Virus record (IMG/VR): IMGVR_UViG_3300028840_004839
Location: 1 to 41,805 of that record
Strand: one strand, 5' to 3'
DNA from: a virus
DNA length: 41,805 nt
Shown piece by piece: positions 24,247 to 41,805 of the stretch; position 1 is the first letter of the stretch, and each line of letters opens with the position of its first letter. The notes beneath the pieces were generated by a model, which had not been told where the DNA came from, did no database searches, and saw nothing but the letters and a program-made list of their open reading frames with translations. A program made the position numbers and the translations under genes.

Positions 24247-26037
24247 ATGTTTAGAGCCGATTTTCACAAAGACGAAAACAAGATTTTCTTATACTACGAA
24301 GATGCACCTTATAAAGAAGTAAGCATTTCAGTAGCAGATGTTGACAGTAAACACGCGATTTACGCGTTTAATTCAAAGTTTGAGAATTATTCAAGCCTTT
24401 GGACTATTCCTGTTCCTGCAAACGCATTGAACCACTACAATCGTTCAGGATATTTTAGGGGATATGAAATCAGCATATACGAAACAGACCGTACTACATT
24501 AATTGAGAAACACGTCGTATGGTACAATCAGGACGCACCACATTTTGAACGTGTTATGTTTGAAACAGACCCTTGGAATCTTACTTGGATTAACTACACC
24601 GAAATGTTTGTCGAGGACTTTTATAATCCTTTGGCAATGAATATTCACGGGGTATGTTTAGACATCGGAGCAAACGACGGTTTATACACCGAATACTTGC
24701 TTCGTAATGGAGCAGAAAAGGTTTATGCTATAGAGTGTGACCCAAGGAGCGTAAAGTTCCTTAATAAGCGTTTCAATAGCGACGAGCGAGTAGTTGTAGT
24801 AGACAAAGCCCTGTTTTCAAAAAACGAAGTAGGTATGAAGTTGGCTTATAAAAATGAAACGTCAACAACGTCTTCACTTATTGATGGTGTACACAATTTT
24901 GACGATGGTCAATATTATGAAGTGAATGCTTGGGATTACAGCACCTTGCTTCGTAAAATGAATATCGACCAAGTAGACTTTTTTAAAATCGATATTGAAG
25001 GAGCGGAGTATGATGTATTTAGGTCTATGACCGATTTTCAGATTTGCCACATCAAAGCGTTTATGGTAGAAATACATTGGAACCGCGATGGAAGAATCTA
25101 TGAAATTACCAACAGGCTTCAGAGTTTGGGATATGAAATTCAGTTGCGCAGACACACGGAAGACAATGCCGTAGTTGAAAATCGAGATGAATGGGCTAAA
25201 TATGACCTTTGCACGTTTTATGCTTGGAAAAAACCTGAAACAAACCAAATCGAGGAACAAATTCAAAACAATTATGGTGGGGAAAAAACAAATGTACACA
25301 TGCATCATTTACGCACCACTTTAAATACAGACGTAGAAAAACAGAGTTTAGAAAATATAAAATTCCTATCTGAATTTTTAAGAATGGATGAAAGGTATTC
25401 AGAAATCAAATTTACTGAATACGAAAATGAGCCATATAAGGATATACCGCCAAGAGAAAATTGTGCTCGACCTGATGCGGTGAGTCTAAGACCATTTCCG
25501 AATGGTGTAAACGAAAATGGACAAACTGCATTAACTCCTGCTCATTACGGGTGTTATGATGCATTTAAGAAGGCTTTTTTAAATAAAGATAATGAATTCA
25601 GAGATACAGATTTTCACATATTTTTTGAGGGAGATGCTTTCGTTGATGATTTTGATTTGTTTGCAGATTGTTTATCGGAAATAAGCGATGCTATTAGAGG
25701 TGGTAAGTCAATAAGTTATATTTCCTTTGGAGGTGTTCATCATTTAGAAACGGGAGAAAAACTATCATATCCTGATGGTAACATTAATGGTATCGATTGG
25801 GGATATTATAGCAAACATGTACCATTTGCGCACTGCATAATTATTCCGAGCATTTACCTGCTTCAAATGAGACAAGCCTTTGAAAATGAACCTTGGGATG
25901 TAGCGGATTTATTTTTTATGAATCATTTCAAAAAATTCCCCTCACATCGTCAATTCGTGAGCAAACATCAAATAGCAAGACAGTTAAATGGGTTTTCTTT
26001 AATTGATAAAAAAGTAAAATTATATCAGCACAAATGA
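24247..26037 (+). CDS. Fused FkbM-type methyltransferase and GT25-like glycosyltransferase
   Basis: 596 residues. Residues about 20-125 are the same beta module as in the previous protein (VSISVADVDSKHAIYAFNS ... DPWNLTWINYTEMF). Residues about 130-325 are an FkbM methyltransferase (LDIGANDG at 138-145, KIDIEGAEYD at 247-256). Residues about 400-590 resemble GT25: LTPAHYGCYDAF at 429-440 corresponds to LT.GE.GC..SH, and FFEGDAFVDDF at about 459-469 to the EDDA metal motif. Known for GT25: LPS beta-galactosyltransferases and animal collagen galactosyltransferases. Both are reasonable models beside a collagen-like gene. The usual DD of the metal site is E-G-D here. Overlaps the next start by four bases. 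Confidence 0.75.
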   Translation: MFRADFHKDENKIFLYYEDAPYKEVSISVADVDSKHAIYAFNSKFENYSSLWTIPVPANALNHYNRSGYFRGYEISIYETDRTTLIEKHVVWYNQDAPHFERVMFETDPWNLTWINYTEMFVEDFYNPLAMNIHGVCLDIGANDGLYTEYLLRNGAEKVYAIECDPRSVKFLNKRFNSDERVVVVDKALFSKNEVGMKLAYKNETSTTSSLIDGVHNFDDGQYYEVNAWDYSTLLRKMNIDQVDFFKIDIEGAEYDVFRSMTDFQICHIKAFMVEIHWNRDGRIYEITNRLQSLGYEIQLRRHTEDNAVVENRDEWAKYDLCTFYAWKKPETNQIEEQIQNNYGGEKTNVHMHHLRTTLNTDVEKQSLENIKFLSEFLRMDERYSEIKFTEYENEPYKDIPPRENCARPDAVSLRPFPNGVNENGQTALTPAHYGCYDAFKKAFLNKDNEFRDTDFHIFFEGDAFVDDFDLFADCLSEISDAIRGGKSISYISFGGVHHLETGEKLSYPDGNINGIDWGYYSKHVPFAHCIIIPSIYLLQMRQAFENEPWDVADLFFMNHFKKFPSHRQFVSKHQIARQLNGFSLIDKKVKLYQHK

Positions 26038-28154
26038 AAATAGCACACATTCAGCCTTCGGTAATAAGTATACCTCCAAATGGGTGGGGCGCGATAGAAA
26101 AAATCATTTGGGAATACAAACAAGAATTAGAGAAATTAAACCACACTGTAGATATAGTCAACCTGAATGATTTTAATGCTGATACATACGATATCGTGCA
26201 TTGTCACATGTTTGACCAAGCCTTAAAACTTGCGGAAAGAAACATACCTTATTTTTACAGTCATCATGACCATCATTCTATAGTTTGGGGAAAGGAAAGT
26301 ACAAATTACCAATTGAATCTTGAGGCTATGCAAAAAGCCGAAATGGCTTTTGTACATGCAAAAAGTAGCATTGATACCTTTGAAAGAGTGCCCTTTTATT
26401 TACCTCATGGAGTAAACAGAGATTTTTTTCAATATAATATAAGAGAGAATAAATATAGACCTCAAATAATTATTGTAGGAAATAATGGTTTGGCAGGAAC
26501 TAACACCGTTTTTGACCGAAAAGGTTTTAGATATGCGATAGAAGCATGTAAAAAACTTGGACTTGAAATAACATTGGTTGCTCCAAGTAAAACTCAAATA
26601 CAATTTTTCGAAGAGAATCCTGATTTGAAATATGAAAAGTTAAAATGTATTTACGATGCTACAGAAGACCAATTGCATGAAGCCTACAAGTGTGCTGATT
26701 TGATGATACACGCTACATATGTTGAGGCAGGACATCCCCCTCTGACACCTTTAGAAGCACTTTCCTGCGGAATACCTGTGATTGGAACATATATGGGTGA
26801 AGATGTTCCCTTAATGCTTTGTGAAAGAGATACCAATAGCGTTATTGATTGCATCAATAGTATGATTCCCGTCCTTAAACAATACAGTTTAAAAGCAGAT
26901 GAAGTCGCAGAAAAATACAATTGGAAAAATATTGTACGGGATAATCTTTTGGATTATTATAATCAAAGTCTTGACCGTAAAAATATGCAAAACACGGGCA
27001 GGAGAATTTATCATCAAGCAGTGCGCAAAGAAGCGATTGATAAATTTGTTTTTAAATATATTGATGGTGCTCAGGTCGATGTGGTTGGTCAAAGTGAAAA
27101 AGAATATAAAGTCCAACAAATAAATTATTTGACGGGTGATGTCATTTTTGAAACCAACTTAAAATGTGGTATGTATGCAAAAAGTGCCAAAAGATACCAT
27201 CGCGAATGGGTTTGGAAAATTATTGATTCCGAAAATAGAGAATATCTACATCCCTTCGATGCAGAGGATAAACGAGTTTATGTGTCCATTGAATCATCTT
27301 CACTTGGAGATACACTTGCTTGGGTTCCAATAGTTGAGGAATTTCGTAAACTACACGATTGTAAACTGATTTTAAGCACACATTGGAATGATTTAGTACA
27401 GGAAGCATATCCTGAAATAGAATTTGTAAAAGCGGGTACTCCTGTTTATAATATTTATGCTCATTATCGAATTGGTTGGTTTTATGAAAACAATGGTCAA
27501 GAACCTCATTTTGGTCATCATTCAAGAGATTTTAGAAAATTTTCGTTGCAGGCAACCGCCTGTGATATATTAGGATTGCCTGATATTGAAAAAAAACCAC
27601 GTATAAAAAATATTGATACTGAAAAAATTAATAAAAAAATTGCTGTTATTGCTCCTCACGCAACAGCATGGGCTAAATATTGGCACAATTCGGAAGGATG
27701 GGAAAAAGTTATTGATTTTTTAATAGAGCAGGGTTACGAAGTATGGAATATTTCAAAAGAATCGGCTCAGGATGCATTTCACAATCAAAAATTACCACAA
27801 AGCGCATTAGACAAAGTTATTGATAAGACGGGTGATTATCCTATAGAAACAAGGATTTATCAGATAAAATGCGCATCTTTGTTTATTGGATTAGGAAGCG
27901 GACTTTCGTGGTTGGCTTGGGCTTGTGAAACCCCCGTAGTCTTGATTAGTGGTTTCTCAAAGCCCTACAGCGAATTTACGGATTGTATTCGTATATTTAA
28001 TCAAAATGTGTGTAATGGGTGCTTCAATGATTACAGGCTTGACGCAGGTAATTGGCAATGGTGTCCTAAATATGAAAATACTGCTGAACAATTTGTATGC
28101 AGTAAATCAATTACTCCCGAAATGGTAATTGATGGTATTAGGAAACTTTTGTAA
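26034..28154 (+). CDS. Fused GT4 glycosyltransferase and TibC/Aah-like heptosyltransferase
   Basis: 706 residues. Residues 1-315 form a GT4 domain (NGWGAIEK near the start, EAGHPPLTPLEALSCGIPVIG at about 231-251). Residues about 335-400 are a small beta module (FKYIDGAQVDVVG, then YAKSAKRYHREWVWKI) followed by a GT9-type domain to the end. Its C-terminal part has IGLGSGLSWLAWACETPVV (about 618-636), FSKPYSEF and four cysteines, C660-x2-C663-x13-C677-x11-C689. This combination is typical of the bacterial autotransporter heptosyltransferases (TibC, Aah), which hold an iron through four cysteines and O-heptosylate serines of repeated adhesins. Inference: target is the giant Ser/Thr-rich fibre next door. 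Confidence 0.8.
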   Translation: MKIAHIQPSVISIPPNGWGAIEKIIWEYKQELEKLNHTVDIVNLNDFNADTYDIVHCHMFDQALKLAERNIPYFYSHHDHHSIVWGKESTNYQLNLEAMQKAEMAFVHAKSSIDTFERVPFYLPHGVNRDFFQYNIRENKYRPQIIIVGNNGLAGTNTVFDRKGFRYAIEACKKLGLEITLVAPSKTQIQFFEENPDLKYEKLKCIYDATEDQLHEAYKCADLMIHATYVEAGHPPLTPLEALSCGIPVIGTYMGEDVPLMLCERDTNSVIDCINSMIPVLKQYSLKADEVAEKYNWKNIVRDNLLDYYNQSLDRKNMQNTGRRIYHQAVRKEAIDKFVFKYIDGAQVDVVGQSEKEYKVQQINYLTGDVIFETNLKCGMYAKSAKRYHREWVWKIIDSENREYLHPFDAEDKRVYVSIESSSLGDTLAWVPIVEEFRKLHDCKLILSTHWNDLVQEAYPEIEFVKAGTPVYNIYAHYRIGWFYENNGQEPHFGHHSRDFRKFSLQATACDILGLPDIEKKPRIKNIDTEKINKKIAVIAPHATAWAKYWHNSEGWEKVIDFLIEQGYEVWNISKESAQDAFHNQKLPQSALDKVIDKTGDYPIETRIYQIKCASLFIGLGSGLSWLAWACETPVVLISGFSKPYSEFTDCIRIFNQNVCNGCFNDYRLDAGNWQWCPKYENTAEQFVCSKSITPEMVIDGIRKLL

Positions 28155-28155
28155 C

Positions 28156-28179
28156 ATGAAAATAGCACCCGATGGCTAA
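28156..28179 (+). other. Seven-codon open frame, possible remnant of a glycosyltransferase start
   Basis: ATGAAAATAGCAC at 28156-28168 is identical to the first 13 bases of the gene at 26034, then runs to a stop at 28177-28179. It overlaps the start of the fibre gene. It may be the scar of a duplicated and lost glycosyltransferase gene, or a leader that couples translation. Confidence 0.3.
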
Positions 28180-31100
28180 AAACATATTGATAACTCCGTT
28201 TAGGTCAAGTACAGACCCTACGGAATTACCTAAAATAGATTTTATTAATGATACCACCGACATTGTGTTGGAGGTACAATCAAGCACAAACGCTTTAACA
28301 TTTACGGGTACTTCAGGTACTCTTTTAACTATTAATGACGACCTTACAGGTACAACAGTAGAAACTGAAAACCTAAAGGTTACGGGTTCTCTTGAAGTAC
28401 CTAACCTTACACAAGATTTAACGATAAATGATTTTGTAGTCGTTGATACATCAACAGGAGAATTTTTTCGCAGAACAGCACCCACAGGTACTTCAGGAAC
28501 AAGTGGAGAAGACGGCTCATCAGGTATTTCAGGCTCTTCGGGTACTTCAGGTACTGCGGGTACTTCTGCATCAAGTGGAAGTTCAGGAAGCGCAGGAACG
28601 TCAGGAACTTCAGGACAAACGGGGTCATCGGGGACTTCGGGAGCGGATGGAAGTTCAGGAACAAGTGGTGCAAATGGCTCAAGCGGAACATCGGGCGAAG
28701 CAGGGTCTTCAGGTACAAGCGGAGCAGATGGTTCAAGCGGTACTTCAGGTTTAGATGGAAGTTCAGGAACGAGTGGAGCGGATGGTTCATCGGGAACATC
28801 GGCATCAAGTGGAACTTCGGGAGCAGATGGAAGTTCAGGCACATCAGGAGCAACGGGCTCATCAGGAACAAGTGGTGAAAGTGGTTCTTCGGGAACGAGT
28901 GGACAAGACGGTTCCTCGGGTACAAGCGGAGAAAGCGGTTCATCAGGAACAAGTGGTGAAAGTGGTTCATCAGGTACGAGTGGACAAGATGGTTCCTCGG
29001 GTACAAGTGGGGTCGATGGTTCATCGGGTACAAGTGGTGAAAGCGGTTCTTCAGGAACGAGTGGTTCTGCGGGAGAAGACGGAACATCGGGAACATCAGG
29101 TTCATCAGCAACTTCAGGTACGTCAGGTGAATCAGGGTCATCAGGGTCATCAGGAACGAGTGGACAAGATGGTTCCTCGGGTACAAGTGGGGTCGATGGT
29201 TCATCGGGTACAAGCGGTGAAAGCGGGTCATCGGGAACAAGTGGTTCTGCGGGAGAAGATGGCACATCAGGCACATCAGGGTCTTCTGCAACTTCAGGCT
29301 CATCGGGAACAAGTGGAGCAGATGGCTCGTCGGGTACTTCAGGAGAATCGGGTTCTTCAGGTTCTTCAGCGACTTCGGGTAGTTCAGGAACATCAGGCGA
29401 AGCAGGGTCATCAGGTACAAGTGGTGCTGACGGTTCATCAGGAACGAGTGGAGCCGATGGTTCATCGGGTACAAGCGGTGAAAGCGGCTCGTCAGGAACG
29501 AGTGGAGCGGATGGTTCATCGGGCACATCGGGAGCGGATGGTTCATCGGGCACTTCGGGAGAATCAGGCTCAAGTGGTTCTTCAGGGACATCGGGTACTT
29601 CCGCAACAAGCGGCTCGACAGGAACATCGGGCTCAAGTGGTTCTTCAGCGACTTCAGGTAGTTCAGGAACATCGGGAGCAGACGGCACATCGGGTACATC
29701 AGGAATTGATGGTTCTTCAGGTACTTCAGGAGAATCAGGTTCAAGTGGTACGAGCGGAGCAAATGGCTCTTCAGGAACTTCAGGAGCAGATGGAAGTTCG
29801 GGAACTTCAGGAGAATCAGGTTCAAGTGGCACGTCAGGAGCAGATGGCTCTTCAGGAACTTCAGGAGAATCAGGCTCAAGCGGTAGCGCAGGCACATCAG
29901 GAACAAGCGGAAGCGCAGGTGAAGATGGTACAAGCGGTACTTCAGGTTCTTCTGCAACATCAGGGTCTTCGGGTTCAAGTGGCACATCGGGAGCAAATGG
30001 CACATCGGGTACATCAGGAATTGATGGTTCTTCAGGAACTTCAGGTATAGATGGTTCTTCGGGAACTTCAGGTATAGATGGTTCTTCGGGAACATCAGGA
30101 GAGTCAGGGTCAAGCGGTACGAGCGGAGCAGATGGCTCATCAGGCACATCGGGTAGCGCAGGCTCATCAGGAACTTCAGGCGTAGATGGAACAAGCGGAA
30201 CAAGCGGCTCGACAGGAACGTCGGGCTCAAGTGGTTCAACAGGAACTTCGGGTTCAGCAGGGTCTTCAGGTACGTCGGGTGAGTCAGGTTCAAGTGGAAC
30301 TTCAGGCTCATCAGGAACAAGTGGTGTAGACGGAACGTCAGGAACGTCAGCCACATCAGGAACATCGGGAGAATCAGGTTCAAGTGGAACTTCAGGTTCA
30401 AGCGGTTCAACAGGAACGAGCGGCTCAAGCGGCTCTTCTGCTACTTCAGGCTCATCAGGAGAGTCAGGTTCATCGGGAACTTCAGGCTCTTCAGGAAGTG
30501 CAGGAACAAGTGGCACATCAGGTAGTGCAGGTGAAGATGGAACATCAGGAACGTCGGGTTCATCTGCTACATCGGGTTCTTCAGGAAGCACAGGTACTTC
30601 GGGCTCATCGGGAAGCACGGGTACAAGTGGCTCTTCAGGAAATACAGGAACAAGTGGCTCAAGTGGTAGTTCAGGGACATCGGGGTCTTCTGCAACATCA
30701 GGAACGAGCGCATCGTCGGGTTCGAGCGGCACATCAGGTGCGGACGGAACAAGTGGAAGTACGGGGACATCGGGGTCTTCAGGTTCTACGGGTACGTCAG
30801 GTAGTTCGGGCTCTTCTGCTACTTCGGGGTCGTCAGGTTCGAGTGCGACATCGGGTAGCGCAGGTACATCAGGTACAGCGGCTACGTCAGGTACAAGTGG
30901 CGCAGACGGTTCAAGTGGAACAAGCGGCTCAAGTGGCTCATCAGGAGAATCAGGTTCAAGTGGCACAAGCGGAAGCGCAGGCTCAAGCGGTACAAGTGGC
31001 GCAGACGGTTCAAGTGGGACAAGCGGCTCAAGTGGCTCATCAGGAGAATCAGGTTCAAGCGGAACAAGTGGCTCAACAGGAACATCGGGTTCTACGGGTT

Positions 31101-34100
31101 CTACGGGTACAAGCGGCTCAAGCGGCTCTTCTGCTACTTCAGGTAGTGCAGGAACGGCAGGTACATCGGGAGCAGACGGTTCTTCAGGAACTGCGGGCTC
31201 TTCAGGAGAATCAGGCTCAAGTGGAACAAGCGGAAGTGCAGGTTCTTCAGGCACAAGTGGCGCAGACGGTTCTTCGGGAACATCAGGAAGCGCAGGAACT
31301 TCGGGTTCTGCGGGCACATCAGGAACATCGGCATCAAGTGGCACTTCAGGAGCAGATGGCTCATCAGGCACATCAGGCTCATCAGGTAGTACGGGTACAA
31401 GCGGTTCTTCTGCAACTTCAGGTAGTGCAGGAACATCAGGTACAAGTGGAGCAGATGGTTCAAGTGGAACAAGCGGGTCTTCGGGCTCTTCTGCTACTTC
31501 AGGAAGTGCAGGCTCATCAGGCACATCGGGTGCAGATGGCACATCAGGAACATCAGGAGAATCAGGTTCTTCGGGAACAAGTGGTAGCACAGGTTCAAGT
31601 GGTACTTCAGGAGCGGATGGTTCATCGGGAACATCGGGTTCAGCAGGCTCAAGTGGCTCATCAGGCTCTTCAGGAGAATCAGGTTCAAGCGGAACAAGTG
31701 GCTCGACAGGAACGTCGGGCTCAAGTGGTTCTACAGGAACAAGCGGGTCTTCGGGCTCTTCTGCTACTTCAGGTAGTGCAGGGACAGCAGGTACATCAGG
31801 AGCGGATGGCTCTTCGGGAACTTCAGGCTCAAGCGGGTCTTCTGCAACTTCAGGTTCGGCAGGAACATCGGGCACGGCAGGTGTAGATGGTACTTCAGGT
31901 ACAAGTGGTTCAGCAGGTTCTGCGGGTACTTCAGGAACATCGGCATCAAGTGGTACTTCAGGAGCGGATGGTTCGTCAGGAACTTCAGGCTCTTCAGGTA
32001 GTACGGGAACTTCAGGCTCTTCAGGCTCCTCTGCTACTTCAGGTAGTTCAGGTGTGGACGGTACTTCAGGAACTTCAGCAACTTCAGGTTCATCAGGAAG
32101 CACAGGAACATCGGGCTCAAGTGGAGCAGATGGTAGTTCAGGTACAAGCGGTAGCGCAGGTTCATCAGGAAGTGCGGGTACAGCAGGAACAAGTGGTGAG
32201 GATGGGACAAGCGGAACTTCGGGTTCTTCGGGTTCTTCAGGAAGCGCAGGTACAAGTGGCTCGACGGGAACGTCGGGCTCAAGTGGTTCTACAGGAACGA
32301 GTGGGTCTTCGGGTTCTTCTGCTACTTCAGGGTCAGCAGGAACAACAGGTTCAGCGGGAACATCAGGCACAAGTGGTGCAGATGGCTCTTCGGGAACATC
32401 AGGTTCTTCAGGTTCTTCTGCTACAAGCGGCTCAAGTGGTTCTACAGGTACAAGCGGCTCTTCAGGAGCAGACGGTTCATCAGGAACTTCAGGGTCTTCA
32501 GGTTCTTCTGCTACTTCAGGTAGTGCAGGGACTTCAGGCTCTTCAGGTATAGATGGTTCTTCAGGAACTTCAGGTTCAAGCGGAAGCGCGGGTACTTCGG
32601 GTTCAACAGGAACATCAGGGTCTACGGGCACAAGCGGCTCTTCAGGCTCATCGGCTACATCAGGGTCGGCAGGTTCTTCAGGTTCAAGTGGTAGTGCAGG
32701 TAGTGCAGGTACTTCAGGAACAAGTGGAGCGGACGGCTCATCGGGTACATCAGGCAGTTCAGGGTCTTCTGCAACAAGCGGTTCTTCGGGAACTGCGGGT
32801 GTAGATGGCTCTTCAGGCACATCGGGTTCTTCAGGGTCGGCAGGCACAAGTGGTTCTGCGGGCACAGCAGGAACATCAGCAACAAGCGGTTCTTCAGGAA
32901 GCACAGGAACTTCGGGTTCAAGTGGAAGCACAGGAACGAGCGGCTCAAGCGGCTCTTCTGCTACTTCAGGTTCTTCGGGCTCAAGCGCAACATCAGGTTC
33001 TTCAGGTTCTACAGGAACTTCGGGCTCAAGTGGAGCGGATGGCTCAAGTGGTACTTCAGGTAGTGCAGGTTCAAGTGGTTCTGCGGGTACTTCAGGAAGC
33101 ACAGGAACATCAGGTTCTTCAGGAAGCACAGGAACGAGCGGCTCAAGCGGCTCTTCTGCTACTTCAGGGTCAGCAGGTTCAAGTGGAAGTGCAGGAACAT
33201 CGGGCTCAAGTGGAACAAGCGGAGCAGACGGCTCAAGCGGTACATCAGGCTCGGCAGGTTCAAGTGGCTCTGCGGGAACAGCAGGAACAAGTGGTGAAGA
33301 CGGAACAAGTGGAACATCAGGTTCTTCAGGTTCTTCAGGAAGTGCAGGAACGAGTGGCTCTACAGGAACATCAGGTTCAAGTGGAAGCACAGGAACTTCG
33401 GGTTCTTCAGGCTCTACGGGTACAAGCGGCTCAAGCGGCTCTTCGGCTACGTCAGGTAGTGCAGGAACATCAGGCACATCAGGTGCGGATGGTTCTTCAG
33501 GAACAAGCGGGTCGGCAGGTTCAAGCGGAAGCGCAGGAACAAGTGGCTCCACAGGGACAAGTGGTTCTTCAGGCTCTTCAGCAACTTCGGGTTCTTCGGG
33601 CTCTACGGGTACAAGTGGTTCGAGTGGGTCTTCTGCTACTTCAGGTTCTGCGGGTTCTTCAGGAAGCGCAGGAACAAGTGGTTCGGCAGGCACATCAGGA
33701 ACAGCAGGTATAGATGGTTCAAGTGGGACAAGTGGTTCAAGCGGTAGTGCAGGAACGAGCGGTTCAGCAGGTACTTCAGGTACAGCAGGTATAGACGGTT
33801 CTTCAGGTTCAAGCGGAAGCGCAGGTTCTTCGGGTTCAGCAGGTACTTCAGGCTCTACGGGTACATCAGGTTCAAGTGGAAGCACGGGTACAAGTGGTTC
33901 TTCGGGTAGTTCTGCTACTTCAGGTTCTGCGGGTTCAAGTGGCTCTACGGGAACTTCAGGAACATCGGCATCAAGTGGTACATCAGGAGCGGATGGCTCT
34001 TCAGGTACTTCAGGAAGCGCAGGTTCAAGTGGTAGTGCGGGTACTTCGGGTTCTACGGGTACATCGGGCTCAAGTGGTTCTTCAGCCACATCAGGTTCTT

Positions 34101-37100
34101 CAGGCTCAAGTGCAACAAGTGGTTCGGCAGGTTCAAGCGGTAGCGCAGGAACGAGTGGTTCAGCAGGTACATCAGGAACAGCAGGTGCAGATGGTTCTTC
34201 AGGAACGAGCGGTTCAGCAGGTTCAAGCGGAAGCGCAGGAACATCAGGTTCAACAGGAACTTCGGGTTCAAGTGGAAGCACAGGAACTTCAGGTTCTTCA
34301 GGTAGTTCTGCTACTTCAGGCTCAAGCGGGTCAGCAGGTTCCGCGGGTACAAGCGGAAGCGCGGGTACATCAGGAACATCAGGAGCAGATGGTTCTTCGG
34401 GTACGTCAGGTAGTTCAGGTTCTTCAGGCTCTGCGGGTACAAGTGGTTCAACGGGTACTTCAGGCTCAAGTGGTTCAACAGGAACATCGGGCTCTTCAGG
34501 TTCAAGTGCTACTTCAGGTTCATCAGGTTCTTCGGGTAGTGCAGGAACAAGTGGTTCAGCAGGTACTTCAGGTACAGCGGGTGTAGACGGTTCTTCAGGA
34601 ACTTCGGGAAGCGCAGGTTCTTCAGGAACTTCAGGAAGTGCAGGTTCTTCAGGAAGTACGGGAACGAGTGGCTCAACGGGCACATCAGGTTCAAGTGGGT
34701 CTTCTGCTACTTCAGGTTCAAGTGGTTCTTCTGCAACAAGTGGAAGCGCAGGCTCAAGCGGGTCAGCAGGAACGAGTGGTTCAGCAGGCACTTCAGGCAC
34801 ATCAGGAGCAGACGGTTCTTCAGGAACTTCAGGAAGCGCGGGCTCTTCGGGTAGTGCGGGTACTTCAGGCTCTACAGGAACATCAGGTTCAAGTGGAAGC
34901 ACAGGAACTTCGGGCTCTTCAGGTAGTTCGGCTACTTCAGGCTCTGCGGGTTCAAGTGGCTCTGCGGGTACAAGCGGTTCTGCGGGTACAGCAGGTACAT
35001 CAGGAACAGCAGGTGCGGACGGTTCTTCAGGAACTTCAGGAAGTGCAGGTTCTTCAGGAAGCACGGGAACGAGTGGCTCAACGGGCACATCAGGTTCTTC
35101 GGGTTCTACAGGAACAAGCGGCTCAAGTGGTTCAAGTGCAACAAGCGGTAGCGCAGGTTCTTCAGGCTCTGCGGGTACTTCGGGTTCAGCGGGAACATCG
35201 GGTACGGCAGGTGTGGATGGTTCAAGTGGTACTTCGGGTAGCGCAGGTTCTTCAGGGTCAGCAGGAACGTCAGGTTCTACAGGAACTTCGGGCTCAAGCG
35301 GTTCTACGGGTACATCAGGTAGTTCAGGTTCTTCTGCAACAAGTGGTAGCGCAGGTTCAAGCGGAAGTGCAGGAACTTCGGGCTCTACAGGAACAAGTGG
35401 CTCTTCAGGCTCTTCAGCAACTTCAGGCTCTTCAGGTAGTTCTGCAACATCGGGTTCGGCAGGTTCAAGTGGCTCTGCGGGAACAAGTGGTTCTGCGGGT
35501 ACGGCAGGTACATCAGGCACAGCAGGTGCAGACGGTTCAAGTGGTACAAGTGGAAGTTCGGGTTCAAGTGGAAGTGCAGGAACAAGTGGTTCTACAGGCA
35601 CATCGGGCTCTTCAGGCTCTACAGGCACATCAGGCTCTTCAGGAAGTTCTGCTACAAGTGGTTCAGCAGGTTCTTCAGGAAGTGCAGGTTCTTCGGGTTC
35701 TGCGGGAACATCAGGCACAGCAGGTGCAGATGGCTCTTCAGGAACTTCAGGTAGCGCGGGCTCTTCAGGCTCTGCGGGTACTTCAGGTACATCGGCATCA
35801 AGCGGAACATCAGGAAGCGCAGGCTCAAGTGGTAGTGCGGGTACTTCAGGTAGTACGGGTACATCAGGAAGTTCAGGTTCTTCTGCAACTTCAGGTTCTG
35901 CGGGTTCTTCAGGTTCAGCGGGTACATCAGGCTCTACAGGAACTTCAGGCTCAAGCGGTTCTACGGGTACAAGTGGTACAAGTGGTTCTTCTGCAACTTC
36001 AGGTTCTGCGGGTTCTTCAGGTTCAGCAGGTACATCAGGCTCTACAGGAACTTCAGGTTCTTCAGGTAGCACAGGTACAAGCGGTTCTTCAGGGAGTTCG
36101 GCTACATCAGGAAGTGCAGGTTCTTCAGGAAGTGCGGGTACAAGTGGTAGTTCAGGCACATCGGGAGCAGACGGCTCTTCGGGTACATCAGGTAGTTCGG
36201 GCTCAAGTGGTTCTGCGGGTAGCGCAGGTACTTCGGGCTCTACAGGTACAAGTGGTTCAAGCGGCTCTACAGGCACATCAGGTAGTTCAGGTTCTTCTGC
36301 AACGAGCGGAAGCGCAGGTTCAAGCGGTAGTGCGGGAACGAGTGGTTCAGCAGGAACTTCAGGTACGGCAGGTATAGATGGTTCTTCAGGAACAAGTGGT
36401 TCTGCGGGCTCTTCAGGGTCAGCAGGTACTTCGGGTTCTACAGGAACTTCAGGGTCAAGTGGAAGCACAGGGACATCAGGCTCAAGTGGAAGTTCTGCTA
36501 CTTCGGGTTCTGCGGGCTCTTCGGGGTCAGCGGGTACTGCGGGAACGGCAGGTACTTCTGCAACAAGTGGTAGTGCAGGTTCAAGCGGTAGCGCAGGAAC
36601 ATCGGGCTCCACGGGCACAAGCGGTTCAAGTGGTTCTTCAGGAAGTGCAGGCACTTCAGGCTCTACAGGTACAAGTGGTTCTTCAGGTTCGTCAGCGACA
36701 TCAGGTTCAAGCGGTTCATCTGCTACAAGTGGTAGCGCAGGCTCTTCAGGAAGCGCAGGAACGTCAGGTTCAGCGGGTACATCAGGCACAGCAGGTGCAG
36801 ACGGTTCAAGTGGTACAAGTGGTAGCGCAGGCTCTTCAGGTAGTGCAGGTACTTCAGGTTCTACGGGAACGTCAGGTTCAAGTGGAAGCACAGGAACAAG
36901 CGGTTCTTCAGGTTCTTCTGCAACAAGCGGAAGTGCGGGTTCTTCAGGTAGCGCAGGAACATCAGGTTCGGCAGGAACATCAGCAACGTCAGGTAGTGCG
37001 GGTTCAAGCGGAAGTACAGGCTCAAGCGGTAGCACAGGAACAAGCGGTTCTTCAGGTTCATCAGCAACAAGTGGTAGCGCAGGTACTTCAGGTACAAGCG

Positions 37101-40100
37101 GTAGCGCGGGCTCTTCAGGGTCAGCAGGTACTGCGGGTACTGCGGGTACTGCGGCAACTTCAGGAACAAGTGGTTCTTCAGGTTCGTCAGCGACATCAGG
37201 TTCAAGCGGGTCTTCTGCTACTTCGGGTAGTGCGGGTACGAGCGGTAGTGCAGGTACGAGCGGGAGTGCAGGTACGTCAGGTAGTGCGGCAACTTCAGGA
37301 ACAAGTGGTTCTTCAGGTTCGTCAGCAACATCAGGTTCTTCGGGCTCTTCTGCAACAAGTGGCAGTGCAGGCTCTTCAGGAAGCGCAGGAACATCAGGTT
37401 CGGCAGGAACTTCAGGAACAAGTGGTTCTTCAGGTTCGTCAGCAACATCAGGTTCTTCGGGCTCTTCTGCAACAAGTGGCAGTGCAGGCTCTTCAGGAAG
37501 CGCAGGAACATCAGGTTCGGCAGGAACATCAGGAACAAGTGGTTCTTCAGGTTCTTCAGCAACAAGTGGTAGCGCAGGTACTTCAGGTACAAGCGGTAGC
37601 GCGGGCTCTTCAGGGTCAGCAGGTACTGCGGGTACTGCGGGTACTGCGGCAACTTCAGGAACAAGTGGTTCTTCAGGTTCGTCGGCTACTTCAGGCTCTT
37701 CGGGTTCAAGCGCAACATCAGGTTCAAGTGGAAGTACAGGAACAAGCGGTTCTTCAGGTTCTTCAGCAACAAGTGGTAGCGCAGGTACATCTGCAACAAG
37801 CGGTAGCGCAGGCTCAAGTGGAAGCGCAGGTACTTCAGGTTCTACGGGCACAAGTGGCTCATCAGGCTCTACAGGAACAAGTGGTTCTTCAGGTTCTTCT
37901 GCTACTTCAGGTTCTGCGGGCTCTTCAGGTTCAGCAGGTACTGCGGGTACTGCGGGTACAGCAGGTACATCAGCAACGTCAGGTAGTGCGGGTTCAAGCG
38001 GAAGCACAGGCTCTTCAGGCTCTACAGGAACAAGCGGTTCAAGTGGAAGCACAGGAACAAGTGGTTCGTCAGGTTCTTCAGCAACAAGTGGTAGCGCAGG
38101 TACTTCGGGTACAAGCGGTAGCGCAGGCTCAAGCGGAAGCGCAGGAACGAGCGGCTCTACGGGCACAAGCGGTTCAAGTGGAAGCACAGGAACATCAGGT
38201 TCTTCAGGTTCTTCTGCTACTTCAGGTTCTGCGGGCTCTTCAGGGTCAGCGGGTACTGCGGGTACTGCGGGTACTGCGGGTACTTCAGCGACAAGTGGAA
38301 GTTCGGGCTCAAGTGGAAGCGCAGGAACATCAGGGTCTACAGGAACATCAGCAACGTCAGGTAGTGCGGGTTCAAGCGGAAGCACAGGAACATCAGGGTC
38401 TACAGGTACAAGTGGCTCTTCGGGTTCTACAGGAACTTCAGGTTCAAGTGGTTCAAGCGCAACGTCAGGTAGTGCGGGCTCTTCAGGTTCAGCGGGTACA
38501 TCAGGTTCAGCGGGTACTGCGGGAACATCAGCAACGTCAGGCAGTGCGGGTTCAAGCGGAAGCACAGGAACATCAGGGTCTACAGGTACAAGTGGTTCTT
38601 CAGGTTCTACAGGAACTTCAGGTTCAAGTGGTTCAAGCGCAACGTCAGGTAGTGCGGGCTCTTCAGGTTCAGCGGGTACATCAGGTTCAGCGGGTACTGC
38701 GGGTACATCAGCAACGTCAGGCAGTGCGGGTTCAAGCGTCTTCAGGCTCTACGGGCACAAGTGGTTCTTCAGGTTCGTCAGCAACATCAGGTTCTTCGGG
38801 CTCTTCTGCAACAAGTGGAAGTGCAGGCTCGCAGGAACAGCGGGTACTGCGGGTACTTCGGGAACGAGCGGAAGTGCAGGTTCAAGCGGGTCTTCAGGGT
38901 CATCGGCATCATCAGGAACGTCAGGTTCTTCAGCAACGTCAGGTAGTGCAGGCTCAAGCGGAAGTACAGGCTCAAGCGGTAGCACAGGAACAAGCGGTTC
39001 TGCGGGTAGCACAGGTACTTCGGGCTCTACGGGTACTTCAGGTAGTTCGGGCTCTTCTGCAACAAGCGGAAGCGCAGGCTCAAGCGGTAGCGCAGGAACG
39101 AGCGGTTCAGCAGGAACTTCAGGCACGTCAGGTAGCGCAGGTTCTGCGGGTTCTGCGGGTACATCAGGAACATCGGCATCAAGTGGTACTTCAGGAAGTG
39201 CGGGCTCAAGCGGAAGCACAGGCTCAAGCGGAAGTACAGGGTCATCAGGAACTTCAGGTTCATCAGGTTCTTCTGCTACTTCAGGTTCTGCGGGTACATC
39301 AGCAACATCAGGTAGTGCGGGTTCAAGTGGAAGCACAGGCTCTTCGGGTTCTACAGGTTCATCAGGAACGTCAGGTTCTGCGGGAACTTCGGGAACAAGC
39401 GGTAGCGCAGGTTCAAGCGGAAGCACAGGCTCAAGTGGGTCTACGGGTTCTTCAGGAACATCAGGTTCATCAGGTTCTTCTGCGACTTCAGGTAGCGCGG
39501 GCTCAAGCGGGTCTACGGGCTCAAGCGGGTCTACGGGTTCATCAGGAACGTCAGGTTCTGCGGGAACTTCGGGAACAAGCGGTAGCGCAGGTTCAAGCGG
39601 AAGCACAGGTTCTTCAGGTTCAAGCGGTTCTTCTGCTACATCGGGTTCTTCAGGTTCTTCTGCTACAAGCGGTAGCGCAGGTTCTTCAGGAAGCGCGGGC
39701 TCAAGTGGCTCATCTGCTACTTCGGGCTCTTCGGGAACATCAGGTGCAAACGGTTCAAGTGGTTCTTCAGGAAGCGCAGGTTCAAGTGGTTCAGCAGGAA
39801 CTTCAGGCACAAGCGGCTCGGCAGGTTCGAGTGGAAGCACAGGTTCTTCGGGAAGCACGGGTACATCAGGCTCAAGCGGTTCATCTGCAACAAGTGGAAG
39901 TGCGGGTTCTTCAGGAAGCGCAGGTTCAAGTGGTTCAGCAGGCACTTCAGGCACAAGCGGAGCGAATGGCTCAAGTGGCTCAAGCGGTAGCGCGGGGACA
40001 TCAGGTAGCGCAGGAACATCAGGTACGAGCGGGTCATCAGGTTCGAGCGGAAGCACGGGCTCTTCGGGTTCAACAGGTACTTCAGGTTCTTCAGGCTCAA

Positions 40101-41404
40101 GCGCAACTTCAGGAAGCGCGGGCTCATCAGGAAGCGCAGGTTCAAGTGGCTCTTCTGCTACATCAGGTTCTTCAGGAACATCAGGAGCGAATGGCTCAAG
40201 CGGTTCTTCGGGCTCAAGTGGTTCAGCAGGCACATCAGGAACAAGCGGTTCAGCAGGTTCAAGTGGAAGCACAGGTTCTTCAGGAAGCACGGGTACATCA
40301 GGCTCAAGCGGCTCATCTGCGACAAGTGGAAGCGCGGGCTCATCAGGAAGTGCAGGTTCTTCAGGCTCTTCTGCCACATCAGGTTCTTCAGGAACATCAG
40401 GAGCAAACGGCTCAAGTGGTTCAAGCGGAAGTTCAGGTTCAAGTGGTTCTGCGGGTACTTCAGGTACAAGTGGTAGCGCAGGGTCTTCAGGAAGCACGGG
40501 CTCTTCAGGCTCTACAGGTTCAAGCGGGTCTTCAGGTTCTTCAGCATCTTCAGGAACATCGGGTTCTTCTGCGACTTCAGGTAGCGCAGGTTCTTCAGGA
40601 AGCACAGGTTCGAGCGGTTCTTCAGGTAATGATGGAGCGAATGGTTCTTCAGGAACATCGGGTTCTGCGGGGTCAAGCGCAACGAGCGGTAGCGCAGGCT
40701 CAAGCGGGTCTACGGGCTCAAGTGGGTCTACAGGTTCAAGCGGGTCTTCAGGTTCTTCAGCATCTTCAGGAACATCGGGTTCTTCTGCGACTTCAGGTAG
40801 CGCAGGCTCAAGCGGTTCTGCGGGCTCAAGTGGTTCGTCAGGTAACGACGGAGCAAACGGCTCAAGCGGAACATCAGGAAGCGCAGGCTCAAGCGGGTCT
40901 ACGGGCTCAAGCGGGTCTACGGGTTCATCAGGAACGTCAGGTTCTGCGGGAACTTCGGGAACAAGCGGTAGCGCAGGCTCAAGCGGGTCTACAGGCTCTT
41001 CAGGTTCGTCAGGTAACGACGGAGCAAACGGCTCAAGCGGAACATCAGGAAGCGCAGGCTCAAGTGGGTCTACGGGCTCAAGCGGGTCTACGGGTTCAAG
41101 CGGGTCTTCAGGTTCTTCAGCATCATCAGGAACGTCAGGTTCTTCAGCAACAAGCGGTAGTGCAGGCTCAAGCGGGTCTACAGGCTCTTCAGGTTCATCA
41201 GGTAACGACGGAGCGAATGGTTCGAGCGGTACAAGTGGCTCAAGCGGTTCTACGGGTTCGAGTGGGTCTTCAGGTAATGACGGAGCGAATGGTTCAAGCG
41301 GTACAAGTGGCTCAAGCGGTTCTACGGGTTCGAGACGGAGCGAATGGTTCAAGCGGTACAAGTGGCTCAAGCGGTTCTACGGGTTCGAGTGGGTCTTCAG
41401 GTAA
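28172..41404 (+). CDS. Giant collagen-like Gly-Ser-Thr fibre protein
   Basis: 4410 residues as read. Residues 1-104 form a head domain with phage-fibre features (NILITPFRSSTDPTELPKID, TFTGTSGTLLTINDDL). From about residue 105 nearly everything is Gly-x-y triplets with x and y mainly Ser, Thr and Ala, and no proline that I can see. The first 700 residues also hold GADG, GEDG and GESG triplets, so are acidic. The middle is nearly uncharged. GNDG and GANG triplets appear near the end. Triplets of ATS, ASS or AAT type interrupt the glycine pattern but keep the register. A frame disturbance at 38738-38830 restores itself, and one at about 41333 ends this frame at 41404 while the repeat goes on in another frame to the window edge. 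At 0.286 nm per residue a collagen helix of this size would exceed 1.2 micrometres. Role: probable virion or surface fibre. Confidence 0.8.
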   Translation: MAKNILITPFRSSTDPTELPKIDFINDTTDIVLEVQSSTNALTFTGTSGTLLTINDDLTGTTVETENLKVTGSLEVPNLTQDLTINDFVVVDTSTGEFFRRTAPTGTSGTSGEDGSSGISGSSGTSGTAGTSASSGSSGSAGTSGTSGQTGSSGTSGADGSSGTSGANGSSGTSGEAGSSGTSGADGSSGTSGLDGSSGTSGADGSSGTSASSGTSGADGSSGTSGATGSSGTSGESGSSGTSGQDGSSGTSGESGSSGTSGESGSSGTSGQDGSSGTSGVDGSSGTSGESGSSGTSGSAGEDGTSGTSGSSATSGTSGESGSSGSSGTSGQDGSSGTSGVDGSSGTSGESGSSGTSGSAGEDGTSGTSGSSATSGSSGTSGADGSSGTSGESGSSGSSATSGSSGTSGEAGSSGTSGADGSSGTSGADGSSGTSGESGSSGTSGADGSSGTSGADGSSGTSGESGSSGSSGTSGTSATSGSTGTSGSSGSSATSGSSGTSGADGTSGTSGIDGSSGTSGESGSSGTSGANGSSGTSGADGSSGTSGESGSSGTSGADGSSGTSGESGSSGSAGTSGTSGSAGEDGTSGTSGSSATSGSSGSSGTSGANGTSGTSGIDGSSGTSGIDGSSGTSGIDGSSGTSGESGSSGTSGADGSSGTSGSAGSSGTSGVDGTSGTSGSTGTSGSSGSTGTSGSAGSSGTSGESGSSGTSGSSGTSGVDGTSGTSATSGTSGESGSSGTSGSSGSTGTSGSSGSSATSGSSGESGSSGTSGSSGSAGTSGTSGSAGEDGTSGTSGSSATSGSSGSTGTSGSSGSTGTSGSSGNTGTSGSSGSSGTSGSSATSGTSASSGSSGTSGADGTSGSTGTSGSSGSTGTSGSSGSSATSGSSGSSATSGSAGTSGTAATSGTSGADGSSGTSGSSGSSGESGSSGTSGSAGSSGTSGADGSSGTSGSSGSSGESGSSGTSGSTGTSGSTGSTGTSGSSGSSATSGSAGTAGTSGADGSSGTAGSSGESGSSGTSGSAGSSGTSGADGSSGTSGSAGTSGSAGTSGTSASSGTSGADGSSGTSGSSGSTGTSGSSATSGSAGTSGTSGADGSSGTSGSSGSSATSGSAGSSGTSGADGTSGTSGESGSSGTSGSTGSSGTSGADGSSGTSGSAGSSGSSGSSGESGSSGTSGSTGTSGSSGSTGTSGSSGSSATSGSAGTAGTSGADGSSGTSGSSGSSATSGSAGTSGTAGVDGTSGTSGSAGSAGTSGTSASSGTSGADGSSGTSGSSGSTGTSGSSGSSATSGSSGVDGTSGTSATSGSSGSTGTSGSSGADGSSGTSGSAGSSGSAGTAGTSGEDGTSGTSGSSGSSGSAGTSGSTGTSGSSGSTGTSGSSGSSATSGSAGTTGSAGTSGTSGADGSSGTSGSSGSSATSGSSGSTGTSGSSGADGSSGTSGSSGSSATSGSAGTSGSSGIDGSSGTSGSSGSAGTSGSTGTSGSTGTSGSSGSSATSGSAGSSGSSGSAGSAGTSGTSGADGSSGTSGSSGSSATSGSSGTAGVDGSSGTSGSSGSAGTSGSAGTAGTSATSGSSGSTGTSGSSGSTGTSGSSGSSATSGSSGSSATSGSSGSTGTSGSSGADGSSGTSGSAGSSGSAGTSGSTGTSGSSGSTGTSGSSGSSATSGSAGSSGSAGTSGSSGTSGADGSSGTSGSAGSSGSAGTAGTSGEDGTSGTSGSSGSSGSAGTSGSTGTSGSSGSTGTSGSSGSTGTSGSSGSSATSGSAGTSGTSGADGSSGTSGSAGSSGSAGTSGSTGTSGSSGSSATSGSSGSTGTSGSSGSSATSGSAGSSGSAGTSGSAGTSGTAGIDGSSGTSGSSGSAGTSGSAGTSGTAGIDGSSGSSGSAGSSGSAGTSGSTGTSGSSGSTGTSGSSGSSATSGSAGSSGSTGTSGTSASSGTSGADGSSGTSGSAGSSGSAGTSGSTGTSGSSGSSATSGSSGSSATSGSAGSSGSAGTSGSAGTSGTAGADGSSGTSGSAGSSGSAGTSGSTGTSGSSGSTGTSGSSGSSATSGSSGSAGSAGTSGSAGTSGTSGADGSSGTSGSSGSSGSAGTSGSTGTSGSSGSTGTSGSSGSSATSGSSGSSGSAGTSGSAGTSGTAGVDGSSGTSGSAGSSGTSGSAGSSGSTGTSGSTGTSGSSGSSATSGSSGSSATSGSAGSSGSAGTSGSAGTSGTSGADGSSGTSGSAGSSGSAGTSGSTGTSGSSGSTGTSGSSGSSATSGSAGSSGSAGTSGSAGTAGTSGTAGADGSSGTSGSAGSSGSTGTSGSTGTSGSSGSTGTSGSSGSSATSGSAGSSGSAGTSGSAGTSGTAGVDGSSGTSGSAGSSGSAGTSGSTGTSGSSGSTGTSGSSGSSATSGSAGSSGSAGTSGSTGTSGSSGSSATSGSSGSSATSGSAGSSGSAGTSGSAGTAGTSGTAGADGSSGTSGSSGSSGSAGTSGSTGTSGSSGSTGTSGSSGSSATSGSAGSSGSAGSSGSAGTSGTAGADGSSGTSGSAGSSGSAGTSGTSASSGTSGSAGSSGSAGTSGSTGTSGSSGSSATSGSAGSSGSAGTSGSTGTSGSSGSTGTSGTSGSSATSGSAGSSGSAGTSGSTGTSGSSGSTGTSGSSGSSATSGSAGSSGSAGTSGSSGTSGADGSSGTSGSSGSSGSAGSAGTSGSTGTSGSSGSTGTSGSSGSSATSGSAGSSGSAGTSGSAGTSGTAGIDGSSGTSGSAGSSGSAGTSGSTGTSGSSGSTGTSGSSGSSATSGSAGSSGSAGTAGTAGTSATSGSAGSSGSAGTSGSTGTSGSSGSSGSAGTSGSTGTSGSSGSSATSGSSGSSATSGSAGSSGSAGTSGSAGTSGTAGADGSSGTSGSAGSSGSAGTSGSTGTSGSSGSTGTSGSSGSSATSGSAGSSGSAGTSGSAGTSATSGSAGSSGSTGSSGSTGTSGSSGSSATSGSAGTSGTSGSAGSSGSAGTAGTAGTAATSGTSGSSGSSATSGSSGSSATSGSAGTSGSAGTSGSAGTSGSAATSGTSGSSGSSATSGSSGSSATSGSAGSSGSAGTSGSAGTSGTSGSSGSSATSGSSGSSATSGSAGSSGSAGTSGSAGTSGTSGSSGSSATSGSAGTSGTSGSAGSSGSAGTAGTAGTAATSGTSGSSGSSATSGSSGSSATSGSSGSTGTSGSSGSSATSGSAGTSATSGSAGSSGSAGTSGSTGTSGSSGSTGTSGSSGSSATSGSAGSSGSAGTAGTAGTAGTSATSGSAGSSGSTGSSGSTGTSGSSGSTGTSGSSGSSATSGSAGTSGTSGSAGSSGSAGTSGSTGTSGSSGSTGTSGSSGSSATSGSAGSSGSAGTAGTAGTAGTSATSGSSGSSGSAGTSGSTGTSATSGSAGSSGSTGTSGSTGTSGSSGSTGTSGSSGSSATSGSAGSSGSAGTSGSAGTAGTSATSGSAGSSGSTGTSGSTGTSGSSGSTGTSGSSGSSATSGSAGSSGSAGTSGSAGTAGTSATSGSAGSSVFRLYGHKWFFRFVSNIRFFGLFCNKWKCRLAGTAGTAGTSGTSGSAGSSGSSGSSASSGTSGSSATSGSAGSSGSTGSSGSTGTSGSAGSTGTSGSTGTSGSSGSSATSGSAGSSGSAGTSGSAGTSGTSGSAGSAGSAGTSGTSASSGTSGSAGSSGSTGSSGSTGSSGTSGSSGSSATSGSAGTSATSGSAGSSGSTGSSGSTGSSGTSGSAGTSGTSGSAGSSGSTGSSGSTGSSGTSGSSGSSATSGSAGSSGSTGSSGSTGSSGTSGSAGTSGTSGSAGSSGSTGSSGSSGSSATSGSSGSSATSGSAGSSGSAGSSGSSATSGSSGTSGANGSSGSSGSAGSSGSAGTSGTSGSAGSSGSTGSSGSTGTSGSSGSSATSGSAGSSGSAGSSGSAGTSGTSGANGSSGSSGSAGTSGSAGTSGTSGSSGSSGSTGSSGSTGTSGSSGSSATSGSAGSSGSAGSSGSSATSGSSGTSGANGSSGSSGSSGSAGTSGTSGSAGSSGSTGSSGSTGTSGSSGSSATSGSAGSSGSAGSSGSSATSGSSGTSGANGSSGSSGSSGSSGSAGTSGTSGSAGSSGSTGSSGSTGSSGSSGSSASSGTSGSSATSGSAGSSGSTGSSGSSGNDGANGSSGTSGSAGSSATSGSAGSSGSTGSSGSTGSSGSSGSSASSGTSGSSATSGSAGSSGSAGSSGSSGNDGANGSSGTSGSAGSSGSTGSSGSTGSSGTSGSAGTSGTSGSAGSSGSTGSSGSSGNDGANGSSGTSGSAGSSGSTGSSGSTGSSGSSGSSASSGTSGSSATSGSAGSSGSTGSSGSSGNDGANGSSGTSGSSGSTGSSGSSGNDGANGSSGTSGSSGSTGSRRSEWFKRYKWLKRFYGFEWVFR
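33690..36830 (+). repeat. Higher-order repeat of about 198 bp (22 triplets)
   Basis: A 66-residue unit, running from GSTGTSGSSG through GSSATSGSAG and on to GTAGADGSSGTSG, recurs with G-[AVI]-D-G marks spaced near 198 bp (for example about 34180, 34378, 34573, 35005, 35205, 35518, 35715). The spacing is sometimes lengthened by extra triplets. Copies differ mainly at synonymous sites. Confidence 0.7.
37298..37535 (+). repeat. Tandem 117-bp repeat, two near-identical copies
   Basis: The stretch beginning GTCAGCAACATCAGG at 37321 is repeated from 37438 with almost no change, a period of 117 bp (39 residues). The near-identity contrasts with the codon-scrambled units around it and points to a recent duplication. 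Confidence 0.75.
38353..38738 (+). repeat. Tandem 180-bp repeat, two copies and a truncated third
   Basis: The text around GCAACGTCAGG(T/C)AGTGCGGG at 38351 recurs at 38531 and 38711, an exact period of 180 bp with few substitutions. The third copy breaks off at 38738, which is exactly where the reading frame is disturbed. Confidence 0.8.
38738..38830 (+). other. Out-of-frame segment within the collagen-like gene
   Basis: In the main frame these 31 codons read VFRLYGHKWFF and similar aromatic and basic residues, while in the frame shifted by one (codons starting at 38739) they read normal SSGSTGTSG triplets. The pattern is explained by loss of two bases (GT of a Gly codon) at 38738 and of ten bases near 38830, together twelve, so the frame returns. 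Either two real indels or an assembly error in repeats. Confidence 0.75.
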
Positions 41405-41440
41405 TGACGGAGCGAATGGTTCAAGCGGTACAAGTGGCTC
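41207..41440 (+). repeat. Tandem 72-bp repeat with one shortened unit
   Basis: GACGGAGCGAATGG starts at 41207, 41279, 41334 and 41406. The spacing is 72, 55 and 72 bases. The short unit lacks 17 bases (the segment TGGGTCTTCAGGTAATG present in the other units), which shifts the frame. Confidence 0.85.
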
Positions 41441-41805
41441 AAGCGGTTCTACGGGGTCAAGCGGGTCTACAGGTTCGAGCGGAACAAGCGGGTCTACAGG
41501 TTCAAGCGGGTCTACGGGCTCAAGCGGGTCTACGGGCTCAAGCGGTTCTACGGGCTCAAGTGGTACAAGTGGTGCAAACGGTGCTAATGGTTCAAGTGGT
41601 ACAAGTGGTGCAAACGGTGCTAATGGCTCAAGTGGTACAAGCGGTGCAAACGGTGCTGATGGCTCAAGTGGAACAAGTGGTACAAGCGGTGCAAACGGTG
41701 CTGATGGTTCAAGCGGTACAAGTGGTACAAGCGGTGCAAACGGTGCTGATGGTTCAAGCGGAACAAGTGGTACAAGCGGTGCAAACGGTGCTGATGGTTC
41801 AAGCG
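41337..41805 (+). CDS. Continuation of the collagen-like fibre gene in a shifted frame (partial)
   Basis: From the codon at 41337 the frame two bases downstream of the main one reads [16 protein letters not shown] and continues as uninterrupted triplets to the window edge, ending GTSGANGADGSS. It has no start of its own. It is the same gene after the 17-base loss at about 41333. The true gene probably runs on past 41805, so the stop at 41404 would be either a sequencing or assembly error or a real truncation. Confidence 0.65.
41571..41805 (+). repeat. Tandem 36-bp then 45-bp repeats at the window edge
   Basis: GGTGCAAACGGTGC begins at 41571, 41607, 41643, 41688, 41733 and 41778. Two periods of 36 bp are followed by periods of 45 bp, the longer unit having one extra GTS triplet. 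Copies are nearly identical, so this end of the gene looks recently expanded. Confidence 0.85.

Follow-up and report, generated by a model that had tools for sequence, protein, structure and literature searches.

The giant fibre gene and its surroundings

The stretch of DNA analysed here, hereafter the window, is the whole 41,805-base IMG/VR record of a lake virus, which is classed as linear and so is possibly a fragment. It ends in a giant open reading frame of 4,410 codons on the plus strand (28172-41404, ATG start), whose product begins with a non-collagenous region of 105 residues (28172..28486), the presumed virion anchor, and continues as an uninterrupted (Gly/Ala)-x-y repeat of 1,139 triplets (28487..38737, residues 106-3522) containing no Pro, Lys or Arg. 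An out-of-frame stretch between two indels (38738..38833, residues 3523-3554) separates this run from a second repeat part of 278 triplets (38834..41335, within residues 3555-4388), and after a third indel near 41336 the repeat is read in another frame, open to the contig end (41336..41805). Since the gene is truncated by the contig end, the C-terminus is missing in the window copy. The first break falls where a 180-nt duplication (98% identity between its copies) ends, which suggests that the out-of-frame stretch is probably an assembly error; homologues are unbroken, and two indel sites of the gene look like misassembly.

A sequence-only reading of this DNA had described a proline-free collagen-like fibre with Gly-x-y triplets continuing for more than 13 kb. 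The Gly-x-y fibre gene is real and the observation is confirmed, with intact homologues of up to 5,338 aa, though several details have to be adjusted. The triplets amount to 1,417 (1,139 + 278), but their continuity is qualified by the frame breaks, by the truncated end and by the occupancy of the first position, where 1,308 triplets have Gly and 109 have Ala (7.7%; ATS or ASS). Proline is absent from every triplet, yet the protein holds five (residues 9, 16, 20, 77 and 104), all in the N-terminal region. The x and y positions are mostly Ser, Thr and Ala, with Thr found 511 times at X vs 118 times at Y. Charge pairs had been reported as missing in the middle of the fibre, a description that proved too narrow: as the 1,139-triplet run lacks Lys and Arg throughout and its Asp and Glu dwindle to zero near the end, salt bridges are lacking along the whole run. 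The first 443 residues match Pfam Collagen (PF01391) with an E of 2e-48, and Gly recurs at each third residue over many triplets as in collagen-like proteins; helix-stabilising imino acids or charge pairs at X/Y, typical of such proteins if not strictly defining, are lacking, as the repeat has no Pro and its main run neither Lys nor Arg. The first 100 residues share 58-60% identity with the homologues in contigs G002 and G005 and 39-43% with that in G008; the N-terminal region gave no match in PHROG or INPHARED and none above cut-off in Pfam, and its predicted model is poor (pLDDT 44) and unusable for fold.

Directly upstream of the giant gene, on the same strand, lie three genes for sugar enzymes. 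GT_A (22274..24241) encodes a group 1 glycosyltransferase fused to an FkbM methyltransferase (Pfam 2.2e-10 and 1.1e-13), GT_B (24247..26037) an FkbM methyltransferase with an additional C-terminal domain (Pfam 2.3e-17), and GT_C (26034..28154), also by Pfam, a group 1 glycosyltransferase fused to a heptosyltransferase-like GT9 domain. Searches with the C-terminal part of GT_B found no match, and a by-eye assignment of this part as a collagen-galactosyltransferase (GT25) was not supported by them. The cassette is preceded on the plus strand by a second, short collagen-like fibre protein of 303 aa (20621..21532; Pfam Collagen 2.5e-15, PHROG 'collagen like minor tail' 5.6e-16) and by a fibre-like protein (21513..22274) whose N-terminus resembles that of its short collagen neighbour and which also occurs in G002, G005 and G008. 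Farther away, at 3187-4302, a RelA/SpoT-domain protein fused to DUF2958 is possibly an alarmone-type enzyme.

Codon use in the repeat shows a pattern of its own. The same amino acids return along it with freely varying third codon positions. ACC, TCC and GCC, usual elsewhere in the window genome, are nearly absent between 28487 and 38737 (11 of about 1,830 Ser-TCN, Thr and Ala codons). Codons ending in CC could pair with the GGN codons of glycine, and when codons were resampled from the usage of the virus the mRNA folded more tightly (mean -111.6 vs -89.8 kcal/mol per 300 nt observed). The rarity of CC codons together with the tighter fold of the resampled mRNA suggests selection for a translatable message. 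A bias against CC endings appeared in 50/60 viral collagen loci; CC-codon avoidance was noted, besides the window repeat, at loci L046 and L048. Codon use also accounts for a 3,475-aa antisense ORF (28138-38565, minus strand), which we rejected as a gene and regard as a by-product, given that, when the initial 10 kb of the repeat was shuffled synonymously, antisense stop-to-stop spans of 3,190-3,416 codons remained vs 3,416 observed.

Intact homologues and the carrier lineage

Relatives of the window virus were reached from the ATPase encoded at 10410-11225 and form a family of viral contigs of up to 84.7 kb. Homologues of the giant gene in G002, G003, G004, G014 and G005 are intact, with stop-free open frames of 4,190-5,345 codons; the first four contigs seem to represent a single virus recovered from several samples, and G005 a second virus. 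Three homologues were translated (5,338, 5,293 and 4,183 aa), and the open frames of G003 and G014 match that of G002 in size. Pfam Collagen matched the homologues as it did the window fibre. After the shared N-terminus they present two short collagen segments divided by a 'DGWDWGTP' domain and a C1q-like domain, the latter weakly matched (Pfam E 0.045), then a main repeat that runs unbroken for 1,141-1,511 triplets, followed by a small domain and, at the C-terminus, by Peptidase_S74 (E 4.3e-16; seen in G002, G005 and G014), a chaperone and trimer-forming module of phage fibres. From these relatives we infer an S74 end for the window copy as well. Among solved structures, the C-terminal region comes nearest to a long tail fibre distal subunit (6f45, 3.9e-12). 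Ala occupies the Gly position in 1.4-1.5% of triplets in the homologues vs 7.7% in the window.

These comparisons bear on whether the length of the gene was inflated by mis-assembly of repeats, so that the true window gene would be far shorter. Repeats are hard to assemble, indels do lie at repeat junctions in the window, and the G008 fibre is complete at 734 aa. Against this, intact frames of 4,183-5,338 aa exist in other samples, three contigs share one open length, and giant frames occur in unrelated viruses too. Between G002 and G004 the fibre genes are distinguished by a single 45-codon deletion and three synonymous sites, and between G002 and G005 by 38 indels and by 1,467 synonymous vs 416 nonsynonymous codon differences, a synonymous divergence showing that the repeat units did not arise by copying a single read. 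Inflation by mis-assembly is consequently very improbable. That gap lengths in the G002/G005 alignment are always multiples of three is in part a product of the aligner, and the real evidence lies in the unbroken run; a register kept through 38 length changes together with the synonymous excess excludes chance. A much shorter gene had been named by the sequence-only reading as the result that would overturn it; the intact genes speak against such an outcome, yet the complete 734-aa form in G008 implies that fibre length varies within the lineage and that the fibre need not be very long. Expansion of the gene apparently took place within a single branch; the long genes of the window lineage, with 1,417 to 1,599 triplets, are the longest among the collagens sampled here.

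The sugar enzymes follow the fibre within this family. The window, G002, G005 and G008 each have the fibre N-terminus, GT_A and GT_C; all three are missing from G007 and G010-G013, whose contigs reach 13-20 kb beyond the site and carry other fibres. This co-occurrence inside the lineage may represent a single gain or loss. Relatives of GT_A also adjoin other viral collagens (L142, L146 and L161). At its far end, G002 has a second large cluster resembling glycosyltransferase/FkbM genes (L051:501-6167), so that sugar chemistry takes up much of that genome. Other repetitive products were observed in the family, namely a second repeat protein with a long GSQ repeat in G002 (L051:17020-18450) and a 268-aa ORF in G010 consisting mostly of Cys-Ser repeats (SCSSCRSCSYC..., L082:6903-7709).

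As for the nature of the carrier, tblastn found no relatives of the fibre, the capsid candidate or the ATPase in 50,697 phage records, a search in which low-complexity masking may hide repeats. Terminase and portal profiles (phrog_2, which we take to be a terminase family, phrog_12, PF03237 and PF04860) matched the controls and 0/8 lineage contigs of 61-85 kb, with the caveat that the contigs are possibly incomplete and that divergent forms could have escaped detection. The capsid candidate (11568-12263, 231 aa) is highly conserved and adjoins the ATPase; its model is jelly-roll-like at low confidence (pLDDT 54), with the PRD1/PR772 major capsid proteins as best VIA-align rows at a similarity below fold-proving level (Z 5.9, 108 residues, 3.8 A). 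A second protein encoded downstream of the fibre (L047:718-1164) is homologous to it (hhalign 97.4%), and together they may represent two single-jelly-roll capsid proteins of a tailless lineage that is as yet undescribed. Around the capsid candidate lie many small proteins in which a single membrane segment is apparent. Walker motifs are visible in the ATPase, for which the comparison with FtsK/HerA-type packaging enzymes gave a weak AAA_22 match and no solved relative. Because amidase and transglycosylase genes are present in the lineage, we read it as a bacterial virus, and the carrier is here taken as a tailless, perhaps membrane-containing dsDNA virus of bacteria. Distant relatives of the capsid candidate were found in MAG contigs labelled Flavobacteriales, Gamma- and Alphaproteobacteria.

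Serine/threonine collagens and their glycosyltransferase partner

The absence of proline, to which the sequence-only reading had drawn attention, is not special in itself. When viral contigs were searched with a GTS-GSS repeat pattern and 80 loci were sampled among the matches listed, 67/80 of these Ser/Thr collagen loci had less than 1% proline, a fraction that is not a population estimate since the pattern favours Ser/Thr-rich, Pro-poor composition. Proline-free Ser/Thr collagen thus seems to be common in viral contigs, often accompanied by S74 or C1q-like domains. The sampled loci have a median of 126 triplets, a largest total of 817 and a longest run of 477, many of them ending at the locus edge. 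Larger forms were found in L267 and its copies (854 triplets, in a 3,122-codon frame lying whole inside the locus and present in about ten contigs), and in L274 (at least 956 triplets, on a 195-kb contig); contigs of the L267 and L274 types come from several samples. The window lineage is therefore extreme in length and unusual in carrier, being in kind an ordinary phage collagen fibre. Across 69 viral collagens, Glu, Val, Ile and Leu prefer X, and Asp and Asn prefer Y; a single class of triplet (G-hydrophobic-D/N) accounts for part of this asymmetry, and the search pattern itself imposes the Ser/Thr bias.

Viral relatives of GT_C number at least 333, and the best 80 of them fell into 40 clusters, 38 of them outside the own lineage. 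A Ser/Thr collagen frame lay within 10 kb of the GT_C relative in 25/38 of these clusters, with at least 100 triplets in 19 of the 25 and a distance of at most 1 kb in seven. Random viral loci, drawn by an arbitrary 14-mer and unmatched for habitat or genome size, contained such a collagen in 0/80 cases (Fisher 2e-16 vs 25/38). GT_C loci were longer than random ones, and after trimming the loci with full flanks to 8.5 kb the count was 16/40, not deduplicated. Among RecT loci from the family of the window virus, taken outside its own branch, the count was 0/30, and a second glycosyltransferase from G002 provided too few loci for use as a control. In the unrelated contigs L259-L267 and L274, giant proline-free collagens lie about 0.4 kb from a GT_C relative. 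The phrog_2 family was detected in 5/8 GT_C-collagen contigs vs 0/8 window-lineage contigs, and the capsid-candidate profile matched 0/8 GT_C-collagen contigs, which indicates that the pairing is found repeatedly among unrelated viruses, some of them tailed. In the reverse direction, GT_C was found at 1/80 collagen loci by exact peptide patterns and at 6/80 by tblastn; many such fibres hence have no detectable close GT_C, in loci that are short (mean below 9 kb). In G019, the record of L257, the phrog_2 match at 92836-94461 spans 7 TAG codons, which suggests TAG recoding.

Fibre glycosylation is the simplest reading of the GT_C-collagen pairing at the level of gene neighbourhoods, and the link of GT/FkbM genes to the fibre represents a newly found enzyme partner. 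The O-glycan stabilisation proposed as one option by the sequence-only reading thereby gains genetic support from an adjacent cassette that tracks the fibre. Host-interaction islands are common in phages, and the cassette could instead modify a host surface polysaccharide, for superinfection exclusion or receptor masking, with the fibre nearby as part of a shared island. The heptosyltransferase-like GT9 domain would suit that role; the repeated occurrence of one GT family beside Ser/Thr collagens, set against 0/80 random and 0/30 RecT loci, argues otherwise, and we hold this alternative to be rather unlikely. It covers the sugar step only and is compatible with a triple-helical fibre.

Proposed working of the fibre

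We consider it somewhat probable (roughly 0.6) that the gene encodes a trimeric, C-terminally chaperoned and probably glycosylated Gly-x-y spike on a tailless-looking virus of bacteria, 1.2-1.5 um long if extended. The trimer, the triple helix, the glycosylation, the virion location and the adhesion are all elements that we infer. The fibre would be a receptor-binding or sheltering virion spike, attached to the particle through its conserved N-terminus. The S74 intramolecular chaperone would trimerise the chains and set their register, and from this end more than 1,100-1,500 triplets would wind into a trimeric collagen-type shaft. Because such a shaft is without imino acids or salt bridges, we propose that sugars on Ser/Thr, added by the upstream GT/FkbM enzymes, probably stabilise or solubilise it. 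With a flexible sugar-coated fibre of this sort, a small particle might contact or retain host cells from some way off. Taking the standard collagen rise of 0.286 nm per residue, the collagenous part, if extended, would measure 1.37 um in G002 and at least 1.2 um in the window.

Several features count against a classical triple helix, including the lack of Pro and the near-lack of charge pairs. Ala in place of Gly destabilises classical triple helices, and its presence at 7.7% of Gly positions in the window likewise speaks against one. The same features, with Asp and Glu fading to zero, no Lys or Arg, and glycosyltransferase partner genes, would fit a disordered or loosely associated, heavily glycosylated mucin-like brush that inherited its Gly periodicity from a collagen ancestor. 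A coil, however, needs no strict Gly/Ala period, and here the period is kept over 1,511 triplets and 38 indels under purifying selection, in homologues that carry the S74 trimer chaperone; we therefore judge a brush unlikely. Bundles of polyglycine-II type, with PII helices packed in sheets within or between molecules, would likewise be served by Gly at every third residue and small side chains, and would not need Pro. Long tail fibre distal subunits can bear polyglycine-II tips, and one such subunit is the best solved relative of the homologue C-terminus. Nevertheless, X and Y are non-equivalent across 69 loci, and 1,500 unbroken triplets without turns would require lateral association, so that bundles of this type appear quite improbable. 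Periodicity under purifying selection, the S74 chaperone and the non-equivalence of x and y together favour the trimeric collagen-type helix.

BclA carries GPT triplets, with Pro and with Thr at Y. Such repeats are not found in the window fibre, which has no Pro in its triplets and Thr mainly at X, although BclA-type spore-coat collagens are likewise collagen-like filaments, and they bear sugar (PMC8968730). In Gram-positive bacterial collagens Thr is mostly at Y (PMC8968730), and stabilisation by sugars on Y-Thr is hence not directly transferable to the window fibre. Mimivirus collagens (PMC8968730) offer a precedent for virus-encoded collagen with virus-encoded modifying enzymes, but in a eukaryotic virus with hydroxylating enzymes, which were not found here. 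The EPclP fibres of E. coli O157 prophages (PMC3368898; PF01391) share the Gly-x-y shaft between non-collagenous ends, a C-terminal trimer domain, a phage adhesion role and length changes in multiples of three; they are short and charged, have Pro in near half of X and belong to tailed phages, whereas the window fibre is proline-free in its repeat, exceeds 1,100 triplets and belongs to a carrier that appears tailless. The tectivirus spike P5 (PRD1/PR772, PMC6750898) is a trimeric collagen-like stalk with C-terminal host recognition on a tailless dsDNA phage, but that stalk has about 17 residues and a TNF-like knob, in contrast to more than 4,000 residues and the S74 end of the homologues; collagen is present in the window and a TNF-like end was not identified, and at the N-terminus, where P5 has a jelly-roll penton domain, the window fibre gave a model of pLDDT 44. 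The proline-poor Ser/Thr collagens of other IMG/VR contigs are alike in GTS/GSS triplets, frequent S74 or C1q-like domains and the GT_C partner, and differ in size (median 126 triplets, maximum 817-956) and in having phrog_2 in several carriers.

Collagen stability is taught as resting on proline, hydroxyproline or ion pairs. In this lineage, more than 1,500 triplets are kept in register without proline or hydroxyproline and almost without ion pairs, by a gene that takes up about a fifth of the virus genome. A wider generalisation, in which micrometre-scale proline-free collagen with a helix stabilised by sugars is a portable fibre-GT module common to tailed phages and this tailless lineage, is tentative and on present evidence doubtful. 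The association with GT_C nevertheless provides a concrete partner enzyme and a route to finding such systems and, if the proposed working is true, a virus seemingly without a tail would bear a fibre possibly more than 10 times the size of its particle.
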